Positions 6,485-32,007 of a stretch of 32,180 bases of DNA are shown here, one piece after another. Below the pieces are notes generated by a model, which did no database searches, was not told the origin of the DNA, and was given only the letters and a program-made list of their open reading frames with translations. The position numbers and the translations under genes were made by a program. The stretch's first letter is position 1. Each line of letters begins with the position of its first letter. This DNA is from a virus. The stretch is from positions 1-32,180 of the IMG/VR virus record IMGVR_UViG_3300035698_017249; one strand, written 5' to 3'.

Positions 6485-6515
6485 CAACAGAAAAACAACG
6501 GTTTTGGAGGATAGA

Positions 6516-6713
6516 ATGCTGTCAGGAAAAGTAACACATCGTATGAGCATCACTTTAGACGAAGTCGAAAGAGCGTCAATAGAGTTGATAGCTGAACACT
6601 ATGAGACATCCAAGTGTGAAATCATCAAACACGCTCTGCATGAGACGTTTAAGAAAGAAATAAGCCAGTTCAGAAACACAAAAGCGATTGAATTTTTTGG
6701 CGACGAGAAGTGA
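6516..6713 (+). CDS. ribbon-helix-helix transcription regulator
   Basis: A 65-residue protein with the RHH (Arc/MetJ/CopG) layout: a beta strand HRMSITL (9-15), helix DEVERASIELIAEHYE, a turn, then helix SKCEIIKHALHETFKKEI. Family members dimerise through the strand and read DNA with it. GGAGG lies five bases before ATG 6516, which I prefer to an in-frame TTG at 6504. It is transcribed away from the leftward early operon, so it is the natural candidate for its repressor and for autoregulation. Confidence 0.75.
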   Translation: MLSGKVTHRMSITLDEVERASIELIAEHYETSKCEIIKHALHETFKKEISQFRNTKAIEFFGDEK

Positions 6714-7494: not shown

Positions 7495-7527
7495 AAAAAG
7501 CCACAGATCTCAAGTCCGTGGCTTTTT
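7495..7527. terminator. bidirectional intrinsic terminator
   Basis: AAAAAGCCAC (7495-7504) pairs with GTGGCTTTTT (7518-7527), giving an A-run and a T-run on either strand. Its 13-base loop holds most of GATCTCAAGTC (7506-7516), which is also an exact complement of 7541-7551. Confidence 0.75.
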
Positions 7528-7574: not shown

Positions 7575-7642
7575 CTTTCAAGGGAAACAAGATCTCCAAA
7601 ACAACATTTTTACCAACCCTTTTGGAGAATTTCCCTTGAAAG
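7575..7642. repeat. long imperfect inverted repeat upstream of the O-like gene
   Basis: CTTTCAAGGGAAA (7575-7587) pairs with TTTCCCTTGAAAG (7630-7642) over 13 bases, and TCTCCAAAA (7593-7601) pairs with TTTTGGAGA (7620-7628) over 9. The result is a long stem with one internal bulge and an 18-base loop. There is no T-run after it, so it is not a plain terminator. Confidence 0.6.
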
Positions 7643-7708: not shown

Positions 7709-8500
7709 ATGACATATGCCTTTGAATCACCAAACTACACACAAGTACCAAATATTATTATTGACAAGTTCATGGCTGAATTGTCCCTACCTCAATTTAA
7801 GTGTATGATGCTTATTATACGCGAGACAATGGGATACCATCGATGCGAAGCACATATATCAATAAATGACTTTATTGAAAGAACTGGTTTATCCAATCGT
7901 TGCATAATAAAAACACAAAGAGAATTGGAGAATAAGAAACTAGTCGAAATAACACGTTTCGATGACAAAAATACCGCGTCGAAATTCAAGATAAACATCA
8001 AAATAACCCACAAGAAAAGCGATGATAAACCTAGTAAAGGTAGTGAACCAAAGTCACATCGCGATGTGAACCAAAGTCACATCGGTAGGGAACCAAAGTC
8101 ACATCGTACCCTAGAGCCTAAAGAAAGATTAAAGAAAGAGAAAGAAAATACCCCCCTACCCCCAAAGGGGGCACGCACACAAAAAAAACCTCCTTTCATA
8201 AACAAGCCTTCACAAAACACAAAACAGATCAGAGAGCAGGTTCACCTCACAGATGAACAACATGAAGAGCTCAAGAGCAAGATCCAAAACGACCAACTTG
8301 AAGTGATGTTCGACATGCTAGACAGAAAGCATGAGGAAATAGAACAGGGCCTTACACAGAGGCGTAAGAAGCCATACACAATACGAGTGTTTGATAGGAC
8401 GTCATGGCTATCGCAAGAGGCAAAGAAGTTTCTGCGGCAAGAAGAATGGGGAAACAACAAGAAAATAAATGATGAAAACACAGAAGGATGGATTTTATGA
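7709..8500 (+). CDS. lambda O-like replication initiator
   Basis: A 263-residue protein whose first 100 residues match the phage replication protein O N-terminal winged-helix pattern: NYTQVPNIIID, then LSLPQFKCMMLIIRETMGYH, a SINDFIERTGLS helix-turn-helix with recognition helix, and ELENKKLVEI as the wing. This domain binds origin iterons. Residues 101-170 are a charged linker encoded by the iteron and A-rich DNA. The C-terminal part probably contacts the helicase, as O does with its partner. GAGGAG lies seven bases before ATG 7709. The stop overlaps the helicase start as ATGA, so initiator and helicase are made together. Confidence 0.82.
   Translation: MTYAFESPNYTQVPNIIIDKFMAELSLPQFKCMMLIIRETMGYHRCEAHISINDFIERTGLSNRCIIKTQRELENKKLVEITRFDDKNTASKFKINIKITHKKSDDKPSKGSEPKSHRDVNQSHIGREPKSHRTLEPKERLKKEKENTPLPPKGARTQKKPPFINKPSQNTKQIREQVHLTDEQHEELKSKIQNDQLEVMFDMLDRKHEEIEQGLTQRRKKPYTIRVFDRTSWLSQEAKKFLRQEEWGNNKKINDENTEGWIL
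8043..8150 (+). other. predicted replication origin: three iterons plus purine-rich tract
   Basis: GTGAACCAAAGTCACATCG occurs at 8043-8061 and 8066-8084, and with one change (GGGAACC) at 8088-8106. The spacing is 23 and 22 bases, about two helical turns. Each copy holds GTGA...TCAC dyad symmetry, and the middle copy extends to CGATGTGA/TCACATCG. An A- and purine-rich tract follows (8112-8150). Lambda ori has the same plan: iterons inside the O gene beside an easily melted A-rich tract. The middle copy is in a different reading frame from the others, so the repeat is conserved as DNA, not as protein. Confidence 0.8.
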
Positions 8501-9948
8501 GCAGCGAATACAGTGAGTATGTGAACTTATGCAGAAAAGGAATTGATGAGGAAGGTGAGAAGTGGCTCGCTACCAGGGGACTGTCAACAGAAACAGCACG
8601 TAAGTGCCGAGTGTCAAACGATGGCCCGTTGATTCTCTTTCCCGTAGGTTATCAAGAGCCAATGCCGATACGCTTTAAGGTGATACATGCAGAAACCAAG
8701 AAACAGTTTTTTAGCAACAAGTCACCGATGCACGAAGATGAAGACTGTACAATGCCTTTTTTCAACCAGCAGGATTTCAAAGATAATAGCTACATCATCA
8801 TCACCGAGGGAGAGTGGGATTGTATGTCGTGGATTGAGCTAGGATATGAAAACGTTGTAAGTCTTCCGAATGGTATCAATTGCTCGAAAAGCGCCTTTAG
8901 AAATTGGTTCAAGTGGATCAACTCATACGATAAAATCTTCTTAAGCTTTGATAACGATGACGCAAGCAGACCTGTGACGGAAGAAGTAAAAGAACTGCTG
9001 CCAAAGATGAAATGGAGAGTTATTCACACTCCGCACAAGGATATTAATGATTGTTTGAAGGCTGGCATAACAAAAGATGAGGCGGAAGACCTTATCTCTA
9101 ACGCAGAGAGGTACCACCCACCTGGTGTTGTGCATGCTGGAACCATTCCAATTGACGATATTCTTAAGTCAACCCCGAAGGGTATGTTAACTCACTTCCC
9201 TCTGTTTGATAAGATTTTAGGAGGTCTTCGCTCTGGAGAGGTCACTTGCGTAATTGGAGATACGGGAACCGGTAAAACAACGTTCGGAGCGCAGCTTATA
9301 AATAATATATTGAACGATGGTAGATGTTGTTACATGTCCAGTCAAGAGATGTCAAAAGAAAGGCTCTTGAAAAAGTCGTTTAGCATGGCTCTGCAAAAAA
9401 CAATTTTTGACGAGGGCACTGTTCTTTCAGATGGTGAAAAGGAGTATCTTAATAAATGGTATAAAAAGATGCCGCTGTATGTAGACCCAGATGGCGCAAA
9501 TATGAACGTCGATAACATAGTAGAAAATATTACTTTTGCAGCGACAGCATATAATGCGAAACTGTTTTTAATCGAAGATCTTGGGTTTCTGAAGTCAACA
9601 GCAAAACAGAGAGACTCAACAGAAGATTATGAGTACGTAATTAAAAAGATGCACTCCCTTGCAGTGACGTTGAATGTTCATATTCTTTTGGTATGCCATG
9701 TCAAGCAGGTCGATGATGATAAAGGTGAGGTTGGAATGAGCCACATTAAGGGCTCTAGCGCTATAAAACAATACGCTGACAACGTCGTCGCCATAAGAAA
9801 AATGGATAGGGGAAACGATGATGAAAAGTTCAATGGTATAGTCAAGGTGTCAATCAAGAAAAATAGAGCCCTTGGTAGAGAGGGATACGTTTTTTTTCAT
9901 TACGATGTTGATAAGAGTCGTTATATAGAGAAAATTTTCAGGGGGTAG
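8497..9948 (+). CDS. replicative DNA helicase with TOPRIM domain (T7 gp4B/Twinkle-like)
   Basis: A 483-residue protein. A TOPRIM fold occupies about 95-190, with YIIITEGEWDC holding the catalytic glutamate and SFDNDD holding the metal-binding aspartates. A DnaB/RecA-type helicase follows: Walker A GDTGTGKTT (254-262), a Walker B-like LFLIEDLGFL and the sensor HILLVCHVKQ. The N-terminal zinc-binding domain of primases is absent, so template-directed priming is doubtful, as in T7 gp4B. It would form a hexamer that unwinds the fork. I chose ATG 8497, overlapping the O-like stop, over ATG 8488, which has no spaced ribosome site. Confidence 0.88.
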   Translation: MSSEYSEYVNLCRKGIDEEGEKWLATRGLSTETARKCRVSNDGPLILFPVGYQEPMPIRFKVIHAETKKQFFSNKSPMHEDEDCTMPFFNQQDFKDNSYIIITEGEWDCMSWIELGYENVVSLPNGINCSKSAFRNWFKWINSYDKIFLSFDNDDASRPVTEEVKELLPKMKWRVIHTPHKDINDCLKAGITKDEAEDLISNAERYHPPGVVHAGTIPIDDILKSTPKGMLTHFPLFDKILGGLRSGEVTCVIGDTGTGKTTFGAQLINNILNDGRCCYMSSQEMSKERLLKKSFSMALQKTIFDEGTVLSDGEKEYLNKWYKKMPLYVDPDGANMNVDNIVENITFAATAYNAKLFLIEDLGFLKSTAKQRDSTEDYEYVIKKMHSLAVTLNVHILLVCHVKQVDDDKGEVGMSHIKGSSAIKQYADNVVAIRKMDRGNDDEKFNGIVKVSIKKNRALGREGYVFFHYDVDKSRYIEKIFRG

Positions 9949-10924: not shown

Positions 10925-11251
10925 ATGGAAGAATTGAAAATCCTAGATAGAATAGCAAAAACCGTTAAAAAAAGTGTTAGGGTTAGAAAAGAAGGACTTA
11001 ATCAATATCCACACATCGACGGTCAAGTCAGGCGTGTCTTGCAGACTTGGTACAATGAGTCCATGGACAGCTTGTTAGAATCCTCACACAGTATGGAATT
11101 ACTTTTTAGTGAAGTCACAATAGACGTACAGAACGACACTGAATGCGCATCGCCTCTATCAATGCCAATAATCTATTACGTAGCATCATTTGATGTCACA
11201 GGACCAAGAGAGTTTGTAGAAAAAATAAGAAATGGAGCAGAAAAACAATGA
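10925..11251 (+). CDS. hypothetical protein upstream of SSB
   Basis: A 108-residue protein with a basic N-terminal half (KTVKKSVRVRKEGLNQYP) and a mixed C-terminal half (MPIIYYVASFDVTGPREF). AAAGGTGA lies upstream of ATG 10925. Its stop overlaps the SSB start by ATGA, so it is probably co-translated with SSB and may act in the same process. No family recognised. Confidence 0.6.
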   Translation: MEELKILDRIAKTVKKSVRVRKEGLNQYPHIDGQVRRVLQTWYNESMDSLLESSHSMELLFSEVTIDVQNDTECASPLSMPIIYYVASFDVTGPREFVEKIRNGAEKQ

Positions 11252-11679
11252 ATACAATTCAAATTTGCGGCTATATGACGAGAGATTGCGAAACACGCGC
11301 AACACAACAAGGCCTTAAGGTCACGACAATCTCTGTCGCTGACAACGTCAGACAAAAAGGCGAAGACACCGTCATCTACTGGCGTTGCACTATCTTCGGC
11401 GATAACTTCGATAAAATGCTTTCGTACCTGAAGAAAGGAAGTGCTGTTGTTATCGATGGAGAGATGCAGCCCCCCTCGCTATACGACAAGAAAGACGGAT
11501 CAGGTAAAGGCATGTCAATGGGTGTCACAGTTCGTAACGTAAGATTCTCACCATTTAAGCAAAAGACCGATGAACAAAATCAAACACAGGCCCCACAACA
11601 GCAGCAGACCCAACAACAACAACCACAACAACAATATCAACCACAGGCTTATCAACAAAATGATGGGGTCCCTTTTTAG
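11248..11679 (+). CDS. ssb: single-stranded DNA-binding protein (SSB)
   Basis: A 143-residue bacterial-type SSB. The OB fold occupies about 1-105 (start NTIQICGYMTRDCETR, then YWRCTIFGDNFDKMLSYLKK and AVVIDGEM). A glutamine-rich flexible linker follows, ending in DGVPF, the acidic-tip type sequence that recruits partner enzymes. It would protect single-stranded DNA during replication and recombination with the ERF and YqaJ proteins. It is the last gene before the hairpin at 11697-11718. Confidence 0.93.
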   Translation: MNTIQICGYMTRDCETRATQQGLKVTTISVADNVRQKGEDTVIYWRCTIFGDNFDKMLSYLKKGSAVVIDGEMQPPSLYDKKDGSGKGMSMGVTVRNVRFSPFKQKTDEQNQTQAPQQQQTQQQQPQQQYQPQAYQQNDGVPF

Positions 11680-12381: not shown

Positions 12382-12837
12382 ATGGCTGCGCCTAAAGGGA
12401 ATCAATTTGGCTATGGGAATCACAATACCGGTCGTCCTCGTACATGGACTAAGGAAGTTGTAGATGCCGAAGCTGAGATATTCATTGAGTGGGCTAAGCT
12501 TCCAGACTCTGTAATCCTAAGAGAATTTGCAGGGCTTAGAGGATACGGACACAAACAGCTATATAAGTGGATCGATCCTGAAGATCCAACTTTTAATGAT
12601 GAGTTTTTACACGCTTTCAACTTTGCAAAGACCGTTATAGGGGCTAGACGAGAAAGAGTTGACTTTTCGAAGAGCACACAAAGAGATCTTGGGATGCACT
12701 TTGACGAGCTCGATGCATACGAAAGAGAGCGCGAGGAATTCAAGTCTAAGCTAAGGCAGAAAGAAGCAGAAATCCAAGCGCTTACAGGCGCTGAAGTAGT
12801 GAAACTGGCGGAAAGCGGGAAGCTGTCACAAAAATGA
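12382..12837 (+). CDS. terS: terminase small subunit
   Basis: A 151-residue protein with the common small-terminase opening (KGNQF...GRP), a helix-rich DNA-binding middle (DSVILREFAGLRGYGHKQLY, resembling a helix-turn-helix) and a C-terminal coiled coil (EREREEFKSKLRQKEAEIQ). It would recognise the packaging site and regulate the large subunit. AGGGGAAAG precedes ATG 12382. The stop overlaps the large-subunit start as ATGA, the usual gene order. Confidence 0.8.
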   Translation: MAAPKGNQFGYGNHNTGRPRTWTKEVVDAEAEIFIEWAKLPDSVILREFAGLRGYGHKQLYKWIDPEDPTFNDEFLHAFNFAKTVIGARRERVDFSKSTQRDLGMHFDELDAYEREREEFKSKLRQKEAEIQALTGAEVVKLAESGKLSQK

Positions 12838-13508
12838 TTAATGATAAAATCTGGCGTCTCAACAATCTCTACCGGATCGTAGATAAGTCAGGTTCTTCGA
12901 TACCTTTCAGGCTGAACGCGGTCCAGGCTGTAGTCGCACTAGACAAACATAAGCGCAAGCTAATTCTGAAAGCCCGTCAGCTAGGGATGTCTACGTTCGC
13001 CGTTATCGATCTTCTCGATGATGTACTTTTCAACGAAAACTTAGCTGCCGGTATCGTCTCTTACTCACTTGAACACGCGCAGCACATTTACAAGCGCATC
13101 ATCGGCCACGCTCTAGAGACTATGCTACCGGAGCTCAAGCCTCTGGTTGGCATCGTTAGTCAGTCAGCGCGTGAGATCAGCTTTAAGAACGGCTCTTTTC
13201 TTCGGGTTGATACATCTTTGCGCGGTGGTTCGTACCAGTCAATTCTGGTGTCTGAATTCGGTAAGACTTGCGCTCGCTCACCTCAAAAGGCGGAAGAAGT
13301 GATCACAGGGACGCTGCAGACGGTGCCAATTAGCGGGAAAGTGGTTATTGAGAGCACCGGTGAAGGAAACAGTGGATATTTTTCAGAAATGTGCCATAAA
13401 GCAAACATTCGCGGAAATGATAACCTAGGGGAATTGGAGTATAGAATGCTATTTTTCCCGTGGTATACAGAGATTTCATATGATCTGAGAAGGGTTGTTA
13501 GCGAATAA
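12834..13508 (+). CDS. terL: terminase large subunit, N-terminal ATPase part (split gene)
   Basis: A 224-residue reading frame holding the packaging ATPase: Walker A-like KARQLGMST (46-54), Walker B ILVSE with the catalytic glutamate (137-141), and coupling motif IESTGEG (172-178). It runs through the LFFPWY segment, typical of the end of this domain (206-211), then loses similarity at about residue 218 and stops. The nuclease half is encoded separately at 14151-14987, after an HNH gene. The two halves sum to 502 residues, a normal full length. They are in the same frame modulo 3, so removal of an insert of 3n bases would restore one gene. Confidence 0.88.
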   Translation: MINDKIWRLNNLYRIVDKSGSSIPFRLNAVQAVVALDKHKRKLILKARQLGMSTFAVIDLLDDVLFNENLAAGIVSYSLEHAQHIYKRIIGHALETMLPELKPLVGIVSQSAREISFKNGSFLRVDTSLRGGSYQSILVSEFGKTCARSPQKAEEVITGTLQTVPISGKVVIESTGEGNSGYFSEMCHKANIRGNDNLGELEYRMLFFPWYTEISYDLRRVVSE

Positions 13509-13551
13509 ACTGGCGAGTATGTATGATAATCCCAAATGGAGGTTATTGTAC

Positions 13552-14154
13552 ATGATATACAAAAAGTGTGACAGTTGTGAAAAGCAAGTAAGTTATAAAA
13601 GTAAGATCTGCATGGGGTGCAGGAAAAAGAATGCAGCGATACGGAAACTACCAGCACCCTGTAATCAGTGTGGAGAAAGCAGGGTCCTGCTAGGGAAAAA
13701 GAGAATATGTCAGAAATGTACACACCTAAACTATTATGCTGCAAATAGGGAAATGGTATGTGAAAAAACCTTAGCTTACTCAAGAGCCAAGATTAGAACG
13801 CGAAGGGGTCTTCCTCTTGATCATCCTAGATTAATTGCGGAATTTGGGGAAGGTCACACCTGTAAACGAACAGGGTATAGATACCTAAACAAGAAAGGTC
13901 ATCCAAATGCAAAGGACGTGAACGTGGAAAAGTGTCGGTGGAGAATTGCCGAGCACACGTTTGTCATGAGCGAGCATTTAGGGCGACCACTAAAAGATGG
14001 AGAATCAGTACACCACAAGAACAGTATAAGAAGCGATAACAGGATAGAGAATCTTGAGCTATGGTGTAAGGGTCAACCGAACGGGGGGCGAGTGGACGAC
14101 AAAATAAAATGGGCTATTGAATTTCTGACAGAGTACGGGTACACAGTATCGTGA
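13552..14154 (+). CDS. HNH homing endonuclease inserted in terL
   Basis: A 201-residue protein. Two N-terminal zinc knuckles (CDSC with CMGC, and CNQC with CQKC) precede an HNH_3-type nuclease (HTFVMSEHLGRPLKDGESVH, then HKNSIRSDNRIENLELW) and the common tail VDDKIKWAIEFLTEYG. Such enzymes cut a target allele so that the gene is copied into it. GGAGG lies nine bases before ATG 13552; in-frame upstream codons back to 13495 are not needed. Its stop overlaps a GTG that opens the terminase C-terminal half. About 60 bases of non-matching DNA precede it. Confidence 0.88.
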   Translation: MIYKKCDSCEKQVSYKSKICMGCRKKNAAIRKLPAPCNQCGESRVLLGKKRICQKCTHLNYYAANREMVCEKTLAYSRAKIRTRRGLPLDHPRLIAEFGEGHTCKRTGYRYLNKKGHPNAKDVNVEKCRWRIAEHTFVMSEHLGRPLKDGESVHHKNSIRSDNRIENLELWCKGQPNGGRVDDKIKWAIEFLTEYGYTVS

Positions 14155-14987
14155 ATAAGATAACAATCAGCATAGAACAGACGGACTACTTCGACGCTCT
14201 GGAAAAGAGCGAGGGGGTAACGCTTTCTATTGGTCAACGTGAGTGGTACTGTCACCAGCAATCAATACTTGGTGACAAAGTACGCCAGGAGTTTCCTTCA
14301 ACTGTAAGCGAAGCGTTTTTAAGCAGCTCTGACGCTTATTACTACGCACAGTACATAGAAGATGCTTATCAGTCCAACCGATGCTTGCATACTAGCTTAT
14401 ATGACGCCCTGCTGCCTGTATATGTTGCGATGGATATCGGGGTTAATGACTTGACCGTAATGATCTTCTTTCAGATGACACACGGAGAGATCCGGGTCAT
14501 CGACTACTACGAAGACAAGAACAAGGGCGTCGACTTTTACGCGAAGTTTCTTCTACAAGATAAGAAGTATCACTATAATACCATCTACTTACCTCATGAT
14601 TCGACGCAGCGCAGCAATTTAGACTGTGGCAACACGTATGAACGCGACTTCCGTCGACTGTTTTCTGGTGTAGACACGAAGTTTCAAGTGCTAGAGAGAT
14701 CAGACTTAAACCTTGGCATATCACACGCAAAGCTAAAGTTTGAGCGGTGTGTATTTGCTATCAATAGGGTAAAGCCCTTGTTAGATCATCTTGGTAAGTA
14801 CAGGAAGAAATGGCACGAAGGCACTGGTCGCTACTTAGACGTGCCCCTTCATGATATTCACTCTAACTATGCCGATGCCTACCGTTATATGTGCCAGGCT
14901 GTTACTAAGATAGAGACTGTATCAAATATGGGCGGAGCGATGGAGAGGCATAGAAAAGCGGTTGATATGCGGCGAACAACCATCTAG
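14151..14987 (+). CDS. terL: terminase large subunit, C-terminal nuclease part (split gene)
   Basis: A 278-residue frame that resumes the large terminase at about residue 6 (ISIEQTDYFDALEKSEGVTL, then GDKVRQEFPSTVSEAF). It contains the RNase H-like nuclease with acidic residues in AMDIG (D95), PHD (D150) and NYADAYRYM (D242). It would cut concatemers at the start and end of packaging. The GTG at 14151 overlaps the HNH stop as GTGA, giving it its own coupled start, although the ribosome site is weak. All three nuclease acids survive, so the split pair may be functional if the two chains associate. Confidence 0.88.
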   Translation: MNKITISIEQTDYFDALEKSEGVTLSIGQREWYCHQQSILGDKVRQEFPSTVSEAFLSSSDAYYYAQYIEDAYQSNRCLHTSLYDALLPVYVAMDIGVNDLTVMIFFQMTHGEIRVIDYYEDKNKGVDFYAKFLLQDKKYHYNTIYLPHDSTQRSNLDCGNTYERDFRRLFSGVDTKFQVLERSDLNLGISHAKLKFERCVFAINRVKPLLDHLGKYRKKWHEGTGRYLDVPLHDIHSNYADAYRYMCQAVTKIETVSNMGGAMERHRKAVDMRRTTI

Positions 14988-15060: not shown

Positions 15061-17232
15061 ATGCTAAACGACTATGAGACAAAGCAGGAAATCCAAGAAA
15101 ACTACCGATATGCCCATGACTTTTGGGCACCTTTCGTAGAGGATGCTAAGGTATATGGGCTTGCGCAATCGGGCTACACTTGGCACTCAAAAGAGCGCGA
15201 GAAGCTAGTAAAAGACGGTCGAGAGCCTTTAGAATTCAATATCATGCGTCGCCCTTTGCAGTTTTACTCTGGCTATCTTCGTGATAACGTCAACTCGATC
15301 GTTATTGCTCCCATGGAGGGTAGCGACCAAAAAACAGCAGACCAGTTGACGGCTGTCAGTTCTTATATATGGGACAAGGCAGAGGGCTTCCCTGTCTTTC
15401 TTGATTCGTGTGACGAATGTTTCAAGGCTGGCATTAGTCTTACCGGTCTTCGGATGGACTTCACCAAGGATTTTATTAATGGTGACATTGCTTTCTATAA
15501 GCGTACATATAACAGCTTCTATCTAGACCCGACTTTCGAGAACATTAACTTAAGCGACTGTTCTTTTGCTATAATGCGTGATCTAATCAACAAGGAGTCT
15601 GCGAAAGCGCTTTTGCCTTTCGTGCCACAAGAAGCCATCGATGAAATCCAGGGTGGTTTCCGCGATGAGAAGTTCATGAGTTACCATCCTCAGTTTACAT
15701 CTTTTAGCCGCAATCGCAACTTGATGGCATACGATCAGTACTACAAGCGTACGACTAGAAACCGTAAGATGCTGATTGACCAAAGAACGGGTTTTTACAA
15801 AGACATTACCGATGAAAGCGAAGAGAACGTATCGAAGCTAGAGCGCGGAATACACCGCTTTGAGCAATTAAGGCGCGATGCTGACGACATTGGTGTAAAA
15901 CAGGATGACATTCCAAGCGTTGAGATTAAGACTGTTGAACGTCCTTATATCGAGCTAAACGTACTGCTCAACGGTGAGCATGTTTATTCTGGCGACGACA
16001 GGACAGGGATTACCGAAGTTTTCCCATTTGTTCCGAACATTTGCTACTTTGAGCCGTCAATCTGGATGCCATCGCAACGACTTCAGGGCATTTCATCGAC
16101 ACAATGGAGTATGCAGCGGCAGTTCAACAAGCGTCACATGAAGATCATCGACATGATGGATTCGACCATATCGACAGGCTTTAAATACATCTTAGGTACG
16201 GTGCCGGATCCACAAGAGATGCAGCAGTCAGGACAGAACAAGCTTATTGGAGTATCACCAGAGGATAACCCGCTTGGTTTAGGTGCTGTTGAGCAGTTGC
16301 AAGGCGGCGGTGCTAATCCTGCTCTGCTAGAGTACCAGAAAGTACTTGATGATCTCTCCCTAACTTTGGCAAACATCACCGAATCGGTGCTTGGCATTGA
16401 CGAGAAGGGTAACACGCAAGTTAGCGGACGACTGGCGCAAGTCAGGATAGCTCAGGGTCTACGCTCAAACCGTAAGATCTTCGACAATATCGAAACAGCA
16501 CAGCAAGTTTTGGGTGGTCTTGTTCTTCAGGCTATTCAGAAGAACTACCCGCCTGAAAAAATTGAACGTATCCTCAACGAGGAGCCAACAGAGCAGTTTT
16601 ACGAAAAAGACTTTGAGCAATATGATGCGGTTATCAAAGAAGGAGTTCGATCCAAGTCACAAAAAGATGCCTACTACTATGAGCTTATCAACCTTAAGCG
16701 TGATGGTATTGTTGACGTGCCGCAAGCTGAAATCGTTCGTGCTCTCCAAATGTCGGGCCTTTCCGATCTTGAGGAAGCCATCGAAGAACAAGAGCAAAAA
16801 GCAGCAGAGCAGCAAGCTAAGATTGACGAGCAAGAGCAAATGGTTCTTAAGCTAGAGGCTTCCAAGATCGAAAGCAATCTCTCATTATCAAAAGAAAGAT
16901 CTGCTAGGATATTAGCGGACATAGGCCTCGCAGAGGAAAGACACAGCGAGGCGAGTTCCAATAGGGCTGATGCAGTATTAGCACGTGCTAAAGCAATGAC
17001 TGAAATTTCAGCATTGAATGAAGATCGCATATTGAAAGTTCTTGCACTATTGAATCAGTTTCAAGAAGAAGAAACAGCAGCACAAGAGGCTGTTTCTGAT
17101 AAATCTAAGGAATTAGCAGGGGCTATTGATCAGTCTGTTGATCAGGCTGCACAGTCTTTACAGCCTTCTCAATCTCCTCAGCAAAGCTCTTCTCTCGAAG
17201 GTAATTCTTCGTCTTTGGGAGGTGGCCAGTGA
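15061..17232 (+). CDS. portal protein (P22 gp1-like)
   Basis: A 723-residue protein with the podovirus portal pattern: a helical start (YAHDFWAPFVEDAKVYGLAQ), then PLEFNIMRRPLQFYSGYLRD, SSYIWDKAEGFPVFLDSCDE and SFYLDPTFENINLSDCSF. The C-terminal 130 residues are a glutamate- and glutamine-rich coiled coil and a low-complexity tail (SLQPSQSPQQSSSLEGN), as expected of the crown or barrel. It forms the ring through which DNA is packaged and ejected. The ribosome site is weak (GGTG). The last 110 bases are overlapped on the other strand by an HNH gene. Confidence 0.9.
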   Translation: MLNDYETKQEIQENYRYAHDFWAPFVEDAKVYGLAQSGYTWHSKEREKLVKDGREPLEFNIMRRPLQFYSGYLRDNVNSIVIAPMEGSDQKTADQLTAVSSYIWDKAEGFPVFLDSCDECFKAGISLTGLRMDFTKDFINGDIAFYKRTYNSFYLDPTFENINLSDCSFAIMRDLINKESAKALLPFVPQEAIDEIQGGFRDEKFMSYHPQFTSFSRNRNLMAYDQYYKRTTRNRKMLIDQRTGFYKDITDESEENVSKLERGIHRFEQLRRDADDIGVKQDDIPSVEIKTVERPYIELNVLLNGEHVYSGDDRTGITEVFPFVPNICYFEPSIWMPSQRLQGISSTQWSMQRQFNKRHMKIIDMMDSTISTGFKYILGTVPDPQEMQQSGQNKLIGVSPEDNPLGLGAVEQLQGGGANPALLEYQKVLDDLSLTLANITESVLGIDEKGNTQVSGRLAQVRIAQGLRSNRKIFDNIETAQQVLGGLVLQAIQKNYPPEKIERILNEEPTEQFYEKDFEQYDAVIKEGVRSKSQKDAYYYELINLKRDGIVDVPQAEIVRALQMSGLSDLEEAIEEQEQKAAEQQAKIDEQEQMVLKLEASKIESNLSLSKERSARILADIGLAEERHSEASSNRADAVLARAKAMTEISALNEDRILKVLALLNQFQEEETAAQEAVSDKSKELAGAIDQSVDQAAQSLQPSQSPQQSSSLEGNSSSLGGGQ

Positions 17233-17836
17233 GTTTAACAACTTCTAAGCTTTTCTCTAAAGATAGGTCATACTTCTTGGAGGCAGAATGCAAGCGTCTA
17301 TGACAACTAAGACAAAGAATGACAAGGTTCTCCATCACGTTGTTCTTCCTATCTCCATCAACGTGGTGAACCTCAAAACGAATATTATCTCTATGACAAG
17401 CAATACACTTGTTTGGAAGTTCTTCAAGAGCATTTCTTGCGTAAAGTTTGTCCCCGTTTTTATAGTTAGGATTGTCTTTTCCTCTTTGCTTACCCTTAAG
17501 CCTCTCGCTATTCTCACGCGCAAGCCTCTCATACTTACATTTCAGGCTACAATTAGTTCGATACTTAGCAACGCTAGGCGGAAAGTAAGCTGTCTTACCG
17601 CAGTTTTTGCAGATTATAGGAACCAGATCACGAGTATTCCAATCGTGGAAACATCTACGACAGCAAAATATTCTAGCATTGGACCCGTGACAGTTGTTAA
17701 AAGTTTTTTTACAAGATTTACAGTTAGAAATAACTTTGGGAAGCCTGTTTTTTTGACCACAACTGATACAACAAAATCTTTTTCTTGTATCGTAGGTCTT
17801 AAAAGGTTTTTTACAGTATTCGCAGATTTTATCCAT
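17123..17836 (-). CDS. HNH endonuclease, antisense, overlapping the portal gene end
   Basis: A 237-residue protein with three zinc knuckle pairs (CEYC/CCISC, CKSC/CCRRC, CKNC/CSLKC), a KGKQRGKDNPNYKNG linker and a C-terminal HNH nuclease with its own zinc pair (CIAC, FEVHHVDGDRKNNVMENLVI, CLSC). It is a probable mobile homing enzyme. It reads against the structural operon, and its last 36 codons are antisense to the portal tail, which matches its low-complexity end (VQPDQQTDQ). I chose ATG 17836; no good ribosome site precedes it, and a TTG at 17881 would translate through the palindrome. Confidence 0.8.
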   Translation of the reverse strand: MDKICEYCKKPFKTYDTRKRFCCISCGQKNRLPKVISNCKSCKKTFNNCHGSNARIFCCRRCFHDWNTRDLVPIICKNCGKTAYFPPSVAKYRTNCSLKCKYERLARENSERLKGKQRGKDNPNYKNGDKLYARNALEELPNKCIACHRDNIRFEVHHVDGDRKNNVMENLVILCLSCHRRLHSASKKYDLSLEKSLEVVKLTGHLPKTKNYLREKSFAEEIEKAVKTVQPDQQTDQ

Positions 17837-17851
17837 ACTTGGATGATAACG

Positions 17852-17875
17852 CGCTTGACCATTAATGGTCAAGCG
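17852..17875. repeat. 24-base perfect palindrome
   Basis: CGCTTGACCATT is followed directly by its reverse complement with no loop, between the leftward HNH start and the rightward gene at 17896. There is no T-run on either side, so a terminator is unlikely. It could be an operator, a cruciform or a nuclease-related site. Confidence 0.65.
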
Positions 17876-17895
17876 AAACAAGAAGGAGATATTTT

Positions 17896-20106: not shown

Positions 20107-20856
20107 ATGTCAAATCTACAACTAGGCGCATCAAGATCGGAAGGTTTCCAACTTGTTTCAGGTGGTGCAGCTTATCCACTACAATTTAGCTGGCAGCCTG
20201 ACATGGTTGTTGTTAATAACCTAACAGACTGGGCTGGAACAGCCGGTGGTCTACCCCGTTCATTTTGGTTTCGCGATCAAATGACTGATGTCCATGCATT
20301 CCAACAGCAAGTAATTGATAGCTCCGCTGGTGCTAGCTTTAACTTCTTGGACACTGCTACTAATGGTTTCACGCTTGCTGATACAAATGGTGGTTCTACA
20401 GACTATTCTAGTCTGATTTCTGCTGTGACTGCTGCTGATCCTTGTGTGATCACTACTACCGCCGCTCATGGCCTACAAAGTGAGCAGTTGGTACGAATCA
20501 CAGACCTAGGCTCTGATATGCCAACAGCGCGTGGTATGGACGAGATTAATAACAACCGATACAGGATCACCGTCATTGACAGCACTTCTTTCTCTTTGAA
20601 AGACCCTGTTAGCGACGATGCTATTGATTCTACTAGCTATACCGCATGGGTAGCTGGTGGTCGCATTCAGCTAGAGAGCCGTATGTTAACCCTTAACAAC
20701 CCTTCTACTACATCTTATACATCTAATGGGTTCGAATACGATCCTATTGATTATAAGCTGATACTAGGAACATCTGTCGTTGGTGGCGATGGCGATGTCT
20801 TGTTTGTTGAGTCTTACGGGTTTGGTAAGGTGACAAATCTTGGCGATATTGGGTGA
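20107..20856 (+). CDS. virion protein with FCCH-type beta domain
   Basis: A 249-residue protein, probably structural. Residues 1-85 are beta-rich with FSWQPDMVVVNNLTDWAG. Residues about 105-195 form a repeat domain (DPCVITTTAAHGLQSEQLVR, then TSFSLKDPVSDDAIDSTSYT and WVAGGRI) of the kind annotated in phages as the E1 FCCH fold. A second copy is encoded at 21520-21840 and a third lies in the large tail protein at 23752. It directly follows the coat gene, so it may be a head decoration or head-tail joining protein. An HNH gene separates it from its paralogue. Confidence 0.6.
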   Translation: MSNLQLGASRSEGFQLVSGGAAYPLQFSWQPDMVVVNNLTDWAGTAGGLPRSFWFRDQMTDVHAFQQQVIDSSAGASFNFLDTATNGFTLADTNGGSTDYSSLISAVTAADPCVITTTAAHGLQSEQLVRITDLGSDMPTARGMDEINNNRYRITVIDSTSFSLKDPVSDDAIDSTSYTAWVAGGRIQLESRMLTLNNPSTTSYTSNGFEYDPIDYKLILGTSVVGGDGDVLFVESYGFGKVTNLGDIG

Positions 20857-20880
20857 CGTTAGACAATTGCTAACAAATGT

Positions 20881-20913
20881 CTCCTATGGTATTCTTATGG
20901 GTACCATAGGAGG
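20881..20913 (+). promoter_or_regulatory. hairpin sequestering the HNH ribosome site
   Basis: CTCCTATGGTA (20881-20891) pairs perfectly with TACCATAGGAG (20902-20912) around a 10-base loop. The Shine-Dalgarno AGGAGG (20908-20913) lies in the 3' arm, five bases from ATG 20918. In the folded mRNA the ribosome site is masked. Confidence 0.75.
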
Positions 20914-20917
20914 TTTT

Positions 20918-21523
20918 ATGAAAATATGTACTAAGTGTAAAGAACTTAAAGGGTTAGAATTTTTTACCACAAAATCTGGAAATGTAACATCTAGATGCAA
21001 AAAATGTGCATCAAAAGTCAATTCAGAGTGGAGAAAAAACAACCCAGAAAAATCTAGGAAGATCAAGCAGAGATACTATCAAAAGAATAAAGAAGATAGA
21101 GACAAGTGCAATAGAGAATGGGTTGAAAATAATCGTCAAAAATCAAATGAGATTAAAAAAGCTTACAAGGAAAGAAATCGGGAATCAAAATTAAAACGTG
21201 AACGAGAAAGAGCAAGAGAACGATATTCCGAAGATCCTGAAAAGCATATTGAAAGGCATAAGAAGTGGATTGAAAATAATCCTAAAGAATATAGAGAGAG
21301 TGCAAAGAAATCCTATGATGCAAATCCTGAAAAAATTATAGCGAGAACTCAAGTTAGGTTAGCAATCATAGATGGAACCTTGATCAGACCAAACACCTGT
21401 TTAAGATGTAAAAAAGAAAGTGAGATAGATGCACACCACCCTGACTACTCGAAGCCCTTAGAGGTGGTGTGGCTATGCAAGAAGTGCCATATGGCAGAAC
21501 ATAGAAAAGATGAGATGATATGA
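20918..21523 (+). CDS. HNH endonuclease with basic repeat region
   Basis: A 201-residue protein: an N-terminal zinc site (CTKCKE, then CKKCAS), a long very basic helical region with repeated NPEK/NNP..Y units (KNNPEKSRKIKQRYYQKNK) that probably grips DNA, and a C-terminal HNH-type site (CLRC, EIDAHHPDYSKPLEVVWLCK, CHMAEHR). It is a probable homing endonuclease. ATG 20918 has AGGAGG five bases upstream inside the hairpin at 20881-20913. Its stop overlaps the start of the next FCCH gene as ATATGA. Confidence 0.85.
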   Translation: MKICTKCKELKGLEFFTTKSGNVTSRCKKCASKVNSEWRKNNPEKSRKIKQRYYQKNKEDRDKCNREWVENNRQKSNEIKKAYKERNRESKLKRERERARERYSEDPEKHIERHKKWIENNPKEYRESAKKSYDANPEKIIARTQVRLAIIDGTLIRPNTCLRCKKESEIDAHHPDYSKPLEVVWLCKKCHMAEHRKDEMI

Positions 21524-21840
21524 CTGGTCAAGTAGCATACAGAGCATTAATTTCAGGTGTAACGAGGTCCGATAAGTGCCAGGTTACTACTACTGATGTG
21601 CACGGATATACTACAGATCAAAACGTTAGAATAACCGACGTTGGTGATATGGCTCCTACTAAGCGCGGAATGGTACAAATCAATGGAAAGGAGTTTTCCA
21701 TAGTGGTTGACTCAACTACAACGTTTCTGTTGAGAGATCCAATTACAATGGAATATATAGATTCAACAAATTATGATGAATATGTGACGGGTGGTCGAAC
21801 AAACCTAGAAAACACAACTTTCACATGGATTTATCCATAA
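21520..21840 (+). CDS. single-domain FCCH-type virion protein
   Basis: A 106-residue protein made almost only of one FCCH-like beta domain, a paralogue of residues about 105-195 in the gene at 20107 (SDKCQVTTTDVHGYTTDQNV, then FLLRDPITMEYIDSTNYDEY and VTGGRT). Either a domain duplication or a C-terminal piece cut loose by the HNH insertion could explain it. The domain is complete and has its own ATG, which favours duplication. It is probably a minor virion part. Confidence 0.6.
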   Translation: MTGQVAYRALISGVTRSDKCQVTTTDVHGYTTDQNVRITDVGDMAPTKRGMVQINGKEFSIVVDSTTTFLLRDPITMEYIDSTNYDEYVTGGRTNLENTTFTWIYP

Positions 21841-31305: not shown

Positions 31306-32007
31306 ATGACTAAAGCTTTAGAATTAACGGGCCAAAAATTTGGTCATCTTACTGCGGTTGAACGTATTAAAAACAATAAACATGGTCAATCTAGGTGGCT
31401 ATGTCAATGTAGTTGTGGAAATAAAATAATTTGCGTTGGATCACAACTTTTGAGAAATCATTATAAGTCATGTGGATGTCAACATGGTTTAAAATTACAA
31501 GATTATATAAAAAGTAAAGTAAAGATTACTAAATATGGTGAGTGGCTGTGGCAAGGTTTTTTAGAAAAGAATGGATATGGTCGAGTGAGCTGGAAAGGGG
31601 AAAGTTGGAGTGCACATCGTCTTTCATACACTGCTTTTATTGGAAATATCCCGGATGGATTATACGTTTGTCATAGAAATGATTATCCTCAAGACGTGAA
31701 TCCAAGCAATCTCTTTTTAGGCACTCCTGCTGAAAATTCTGCTGATATGGTAGAAAAGAAACGCTCATTTAGTTCGAAAGGAATTCCTAGAACGTATATG
31801 CAAGGTGAAAAACACAATAAATCAAAGTTGGCCGAAAGAGACGTCATTAAAATTCGACAAATGAGAAAAGAAGGCATCGGAAATACTGAAATGTCTAAGA
31901 TCTACGGAGTCTGCGTTACAACGATTGAAAGAATCGTATACGGCAAAACCTGGCGCCACGTCCCTCTCCCCTCAACCCAAAGCGAGGATTCATCCGATGA
32001 GCAATAA
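31306..32007 (+). CDS. HNH endonuclease with C-terminal helix-turn-helix
   Basis: A 233-residue protein in three parts. The first is an N-terminal zinc domain (GQKFGHLTAVER, then WLCQCSCGNK and KSCGC). The second is an HNH_3-type nuclease (SAHRLSYTAFIGNIPDGLYV, CHRNDYPQDVNPSNLFLGTP). The third is a C-terminal DNA-reading HTH (NKSKLAERDVIKIRQMRKEG, then MSKIYGVCVTTIERIVYG) of the kind found at the end of intron-associated homing enzymes. AGGAG precedes ATG 31306. It sits between the fibre terminator and a small gene it overlaps, so it is probably a mobile insert outside an essential gene. Confidence 0.85.
   Translation: MTKALELTGQKFGHLTAVERIKNNKHGQSRWLCQCSCGNKIICVGSQLLRNHYKSCGCQHGLKLQDYIKSKVKITKYGEWLWQGFLEKNGYGRVSWKGESWSAHRLSYTAFIGNIPDGLYVCHRNDYPQDVNPSNLFLGTPAENSADMVEKKRSFSSKGIPRTYMQGEKHNKSKLAERDVIKIRQMRKEGIGNTEMSKIYGVCVTTIERIVYGKTWRHVPLPSTQSEDSSDEQ

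Follow-up and report, generated by a model that had tools for sequence, protein, structure and literature searches.

We consider it very likely, at a probability of about 0.88, that positions 8043–8150 of the window (the whole stretch of viral DNA analysed here, 32,180 nucleotides long) would act as the replication origin of this phage, a function read from an ori-lambda-like sequence inside the linker of the phage's own initiator gene. Placing the array within the initiator gene is a known design, that of phage lambda, and the window is a new example of it. A lambda-style origin inside an O-like gene had been proposed in an earlier, sequence-only reading, and is supported both by the ori-lambda-like anatomy and by the intragenic arrays found across the family.

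The gene occupies 7709–8500 on the plus strand and encodes an O-like replication initiator of 263 amino acids. The protein matches Phage_rep_O (PF04492, E 2e-8) with a Pfam score of 35.1 bits, above the gathering score of 28.7, and PHROG 678, 'replication initiation O-like' (E 1e-20); a single-protein search of viral or genome contigs returned no close relative of it. The AlphaFold2 model has the PF04492-type layout, with a winged helix in the first 100 residues, then a linker and a helical C-terminal part (residues 182–248). The predicted winged-helix DNA-binding domain spans codons 12–95 (7742–7993, plus strand), where pLDDT is mostly 74–95 by block, and its recognition helix is approximately GLSNRCIIKTQREL. 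In structure comparison this domain matched winged-helix proteins, CRP-DNA and the plasmid initiator domain 4pt7 being two of them; these matches speak for the predicted fold and not for function. Codons 103–177 (8015–8239, plus strand) form a linker predicted to be disordered, with pLDDT below 50 over almost all of it, and both the iterons and a purine tract lie within this linker, in agreement with the earlier description of an O-like initiator carrying iterons there.

The array comprises three 19-base iterons on the plus strand, spaced 23 and then 22 bases apart: GTGAACCAAAGTCACATCG at 8043–8061, an exact second copy of GTGAACCAAAGTCACATCG at 8066–8084, in another reading frame than the first, and GGGAACCAAAGTCACATCG at 8088–8106, which differs by one mismatch (GGGAAC...). 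The first iteron begins 334 bases into the gene, and the array encodes residues ∼112–133. These positions and the single mismatch verify the two exact and one near-exact copies reported before. By chance, 0.01 matches would be expected at up to three mismatches, and three copies occurred in 0 of 100 shuffled windows. Iterons 1, 2 and 3 are read in frames 1, 0 and 1, giving the peptides SEPKSHRD, VNQSHIGR and REPKSHRT, so that copies 1 and 3 do share a frame (EPKSH) and copy 2 is read in another (NQSHI). When the O-like gene was synonymously recoded 150 times, the best three-copy out-of-frame identity was 8 bases, as against the 17 observed, which is in line with the suggestion that selection appears to act on the DNA. 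A pairwise 19-base repeat did arise once per 2000 synonymous recodings; the argument therefore rests on the out-of-frame triple and not on the pair.

The half-site of these iterons is approximately TGTGA/TCACA with a spacer of N7. Iteron 2 with its flank forms a perfect palindrome with 8-base arms, CGATGTGA-ACCAAAG-TCACATCG (8062–8084), and a perfect 16-base palindrome, TCACATCGCGATGTGA (8054–8069, no strand assigned), lies where iterons 1 and 2 abut. The claim that each copy has internal dyad symmetry holds for iteron 2 but was slightly generous for the other two, since iteron 1 has 4-base arms only and iteron 3 one arm mismatch. The linker thus holds at least three phased palindromic iterons in mixed frames, iterons 1 and 3 being imperfect palindromes. 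The 15-base iteron core had 43 single matches in viral contigs, none arrayed and none in two copies, and the iteron sequence appears, as far as searched, to be private to this phage. An Rfam search gave no match, and an RNA hairpin as the function was rejected: iteron 2 folds alone (−9 kcal/mol), but iterons 1 and 3 lack the arms.

Behind the iterons lies the A-rich purine tract noted previously, at 8120–8150 on the plus strand (28 of 31 bases are purines), which we presume to be the strand-opening region. Its AT content is 69% over 45 bases, and 40-base stretches starting at 8107–8120 fall in the 92nd–96th percentile of instability within the window by nearest-neighbour energies. As an exceptional melting site the tract was rejected, its stability being low but unexceptional; 7854–7893, in the same gene, is less stable. 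The cumulative GC skew, for which a turn near 8.1 kb had been proposed, does reach its minimum close to the array, at 8297, but gene direction switches from leftward to rightward nearby and third-position skew is ∼0 on either side. Because the skew cannot separate an origin from gene direction here, we dropped it as independent evidence.

The gene that follows (8488–9948, plus strand; alternatively from the ATG at 8497, which overlaps the O-like stop codon as ATGA) encodes a TOPRIM and DnaB/RecA-type helicase protein (PF03796, E 1e-20; PF13155, E 1e-9). T7-like primase-helicases combine a zinc-binding domain, a TOPRIM domain and a RecA-type helicase, whereas the window protein has TOPRIM and helicase with the zinc domain absent: its match to phrog_239 (phage primase/helicase) begins at model position 108, and in alignment with longer relatives it is without their N-terminal region. 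In the part of the window's ORF set that was searched, neither a lambda-P-type helicase loader gene nor a DNA polymerase gene was identified. The view that initiator and downstream helicase complete the expected set was right about the helicase, but the module is an O-like gene with a TOPRIM-DnaB helicase lacking the zinc domain, and not lambda O plus P. The pairing of an O-like gene with a TOPRIM-DnaB helicase is not unique, since at the loci L342, L345 and L349 such a helicase likewise comes after the O-like gene. A single-strand DNA-binding protein (SSB) is encoded further on (11248–11679, plus strand; PF00436, E 1e-15), and the Pfam search placed ERF annealing and YqaJ exonuclease genes on the opposite strand.

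Two structured elements lie upstream. A long stem-loop in the leader (7575–7642), 66 bases before the O-like gene, has 13-base perfect outer arms and a second stem (−26 kcal/mol, z −6.2) and is possibly an antitermination or regulatory RNA; its outer arms had no exact copy in viral contigs. A terminator-like hairpin at 7495–7527, with T/A runs on both sides, separates the block of leftward genes from that of rightward genes and is probably bidirectional. Elsewhere in the window, the large terminase is split into two frames (12834–13508 and 14151–14987) by an HNH endonuclease gene (13495–14154), and relatives match the two halves separately. There are further endonuclease-like genes at 17123–17881, 20840–21523 and 31306–32007, two of them with HNH domains. 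The one at 20840–21523 is HNH-like by eye, had no Pfam match, and is flanked by 20107–20856 and 21520–21840, which share an E1_FCCH-like match. A 175-amino-acid protein encoded on the reverse strand at 1923–2450 begins with what resembles an integrase arm-binding domain; it matched no family, and no integrase catalytic domain was seen.

Among known systems, the closest parallels are lambda and, grouped with it, the Stx phages P27 and 933W, whose iterons start ∼340 bases in and are spaced ∼20–24. In lambda, as in the window, a winged-helix O-family initiator carries iterons in the linker of its gene (PMC7466680), and an A-rich purine tract lies downstream of the iterons. Lambda gene O has four annotated iterons that start 348 bases in, compared with 334 here, and are spaced 20/24/23. 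The differences are that the lambda/Stx group has 4–6 iterons with another half-site, against three in the window, that the O-like protein has 19% overall identity to lambda O, and that lambda is of the O-P loader type, whereas the window has a TOPRIM-DnaB helicase and no P-type loader was found. According to work cited in PMC7466680, lambda can grow with three iterons, and the minimum for unwinding is two iterons plus the AT-rich region. P22 and phage L carry other repeats inside their O-like gene 18, which is followed by the phage helicase gene 12 (PMC8022706); P22 gp12 is a DnaB-type helicase, whereas the window helicase has a TOPRIM domain before the helicase domain. The best annotated relatives of the O-like protein, at 34% identity over 84 amino acids, are in the Pasteurella phages Pmp13 and Pm86, which have three intragenic iterons, TGTCAAAAATTTAGACA, spaced 22/23, although there the O-like gene is followed by a P-like helicase loader and not by a TOPRIM-DnaB helicase. 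The winged-helix domain also resembles staphylococcal plasmid RepA-type initiators (4pt7, 4pql; Z ∼9), but with an rmsd of ∼6, a poor superposition, with no sequence match, and from plasmids, not phages. In staphylococcal RepA-type plasmids, too, iterons are located within rep itself.

We then asked how general the arrangement is. A search with the lambda-like O domain gave 160 loci, which with annotated phages and the window were dereplicated to 62 genes, and the linker of each was scored for chained 17-base repeats, with synonymous recodings as controls. A score of at least 30 was reached by 89% of the 62 genes and by 10% of the recodings. At least three intragenic repeats were present in 55 of the 62, spaced mostly 20/24/23 or 24/24, and intragenic iteron arrays are, judged from these genes, the norm in the O family. 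One group of lambda-like O genes with identical scores (L104–L111), on contigs labelled Streptomyces, Neobacillus, Leeuwenhoekiella, Bradyrhizobium and others, probably reflects lambda DNA contamination in public assemblies.

The iterons vary with the recognition helix of the protein. The helix SRQNVNKAK is paired with the arms GTCTCT/AGAGAC, PRQKVNKAK with GTCACC/GGTGAC, HHTHVCKAK with TTAGCC/GCTAA, LPHKCSAAK with TTACCC/GGTAA and, in lambda, PVKRCNEAK with TCCCTC/GAGGGA. When identity in the remainder of the domain was controlled for, the partial Mantel r between helix and arm identity was 0.61, a value reached in 0 of 2000 permutations, and arm identity was 97% with the same helix as against 45% with a different helix, even at >65% rest-of-domain identity; since the survey genes are mostly enterobacterial or related, these figures describe the sample and are not counts of independent events. 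Since members of the family typically carry an intragenic array, and the arrays track the recognition helix, the best reading is that the window's array would be bound by its own protein.

For the window's own branch, a search with the motif NYTQ(V/I)PN gave 54 loci, and the dereplicated set comprised 40 genes, the window and Pmp13 among them. The score of at least 30 was reached by 26 of the 40, against 2% of recodings. At least three copies with a palindromic consensus were found in 19 of the 40, and by this strict count 21 are without a clear palindromic three-copy array. In the comparison with relatives proposed for the iteron spacing, the 23/22 spacing of the window recurred in L300, L305, L328 and L336. 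The nearest half-site seen was that of L325 (arm AGTGAAC), whose helix, GLSRKGITK, differs from the window's.

Viruses sharing the window's terminase and portal (portal identity 57–83%) were found in environmental contigs only, and the window portal had no match in the annotated phage collection. An O gene above the cut-off was present in one of 37 such records, L285. It contains four repeats centred on AATTT, whose positions (484, 508, 529 and 553) were assigned by visual inspection, and A/G-rich sequence comes after them; the array is loose, recoding having reached its score in 2 of 100 cases. An unbiased scan for three palindromic copies over 53 loci and 743 kb, window included, yielded six arrays, five of them within actual or apparent initiator genes (the window, L220, L225, L244 and L294), whereas shuffled versions of the same 743 kb gave none in five sets. 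The genes of L225, L244 and L294 match initiator PHROGs, and that of L220 matched no family. An array-like match in L250 (1623) was set aside as a coding repeat that lies outside the initiator. In L220, L225, L244, L294 and L285 the initiators are unlike the window's, yet the arrays again lie in the linker with A-rich sequence behind. Packaging genes are thus retained in this virus group as initiators are replaced, and in these cases the array is replaced along with the initiator.

These comparisons also bear on other explanations of the repeats. They could be operators at which a phage regulator, be it the O-like protein or some other, controls transcription through the operon, with replication starting elsewhere. 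Tandem palindromic sites could suit a repressor, and a small ribbon-helix-helix-like protein with a weak repressor match is encoded at 6504–6713. We nevertheless think this unlikely: the same element in lambda is the origin (PMC7466680), the repeats begin 334 bases from the start of the gene and adjoin no promoter-like match, and arrays in the same position recur in the family with unrelated half-sites, followed by an A-rich tract. Less probable still is that the repeats are host CRP/FNR-type sites (TGTGA...TCACA) through which replication or transcription of the phage is coupled to the physiology of its host. The CRP site is TGTGA-N6-TCACA, which the TGTGA-N7-TCACA of the iterons resembles, and the structure comparison of the winged-helix domain also returned CRP-DNA; the spacer, however, has 7 bases where that of CRP has 6, the linker contains three phased copies, and relatives keep the position of the array while their half-sites differ, tracking their own initiators. 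That the EPKSH/NQSH peptide serves, for example, a helicase contact, with the DNA repeat as a by-product, is equally improbable, for although the peptides of iterons 1 and 3 agree, iteron 2 in its other frame encodes a different one, recoding yields at most 8 bases of three-copy identity against the 17 observed, and the stretch is predicted to be disordered.

If 8043–8150 is an origin, O-like dimers would bind the three palindromic iterons through the winged-helix domain, each half-site being contacted by a single recognition helix. With sites ∼22–23 bp, or two helical turns, apart, the bound dimers could stack into a single complex, which would strain and open the adjacent A-rich purine tract. 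The C-terminal helical domain may then bring the ring helicase of the neighbouring gene (8497–9948) onto the exposed strand, perhaps directly, as no loader gene was identified; DNA synthesis would presumably fall to the host, no DNA polymerase gene having been identified in the window.

The analysis places a probable origin, with base-level sites, in an environmental virus group for which the phage collection searched contains no close cultured relative, and initiator genes may offer a simple route to phage origins in metagenomes. The surveyed initiator genes hold both a DNA-binding helix and its likely target, and so could supply paired protein–DNA data for a recognition code. The general result, that helix and iteron covary and that the initiator is exchanged together with its array, merits a larger, phylogeny-aware test. 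Somewhat short of even odds, we would tentatively go further: initiator and iterons may form a one-gene replicator cassette that is swapped whole while head and packaging genes stay constant, with helix and half-site co-evolving by a readable rule and, here, with a ring helicase recruited without a separate loader. If so, every gene of this kind would document, in nature, which site belongs to which DNA-binding helix, and the gene by itself would suffice to predict the origin in a phage not yet characterised.
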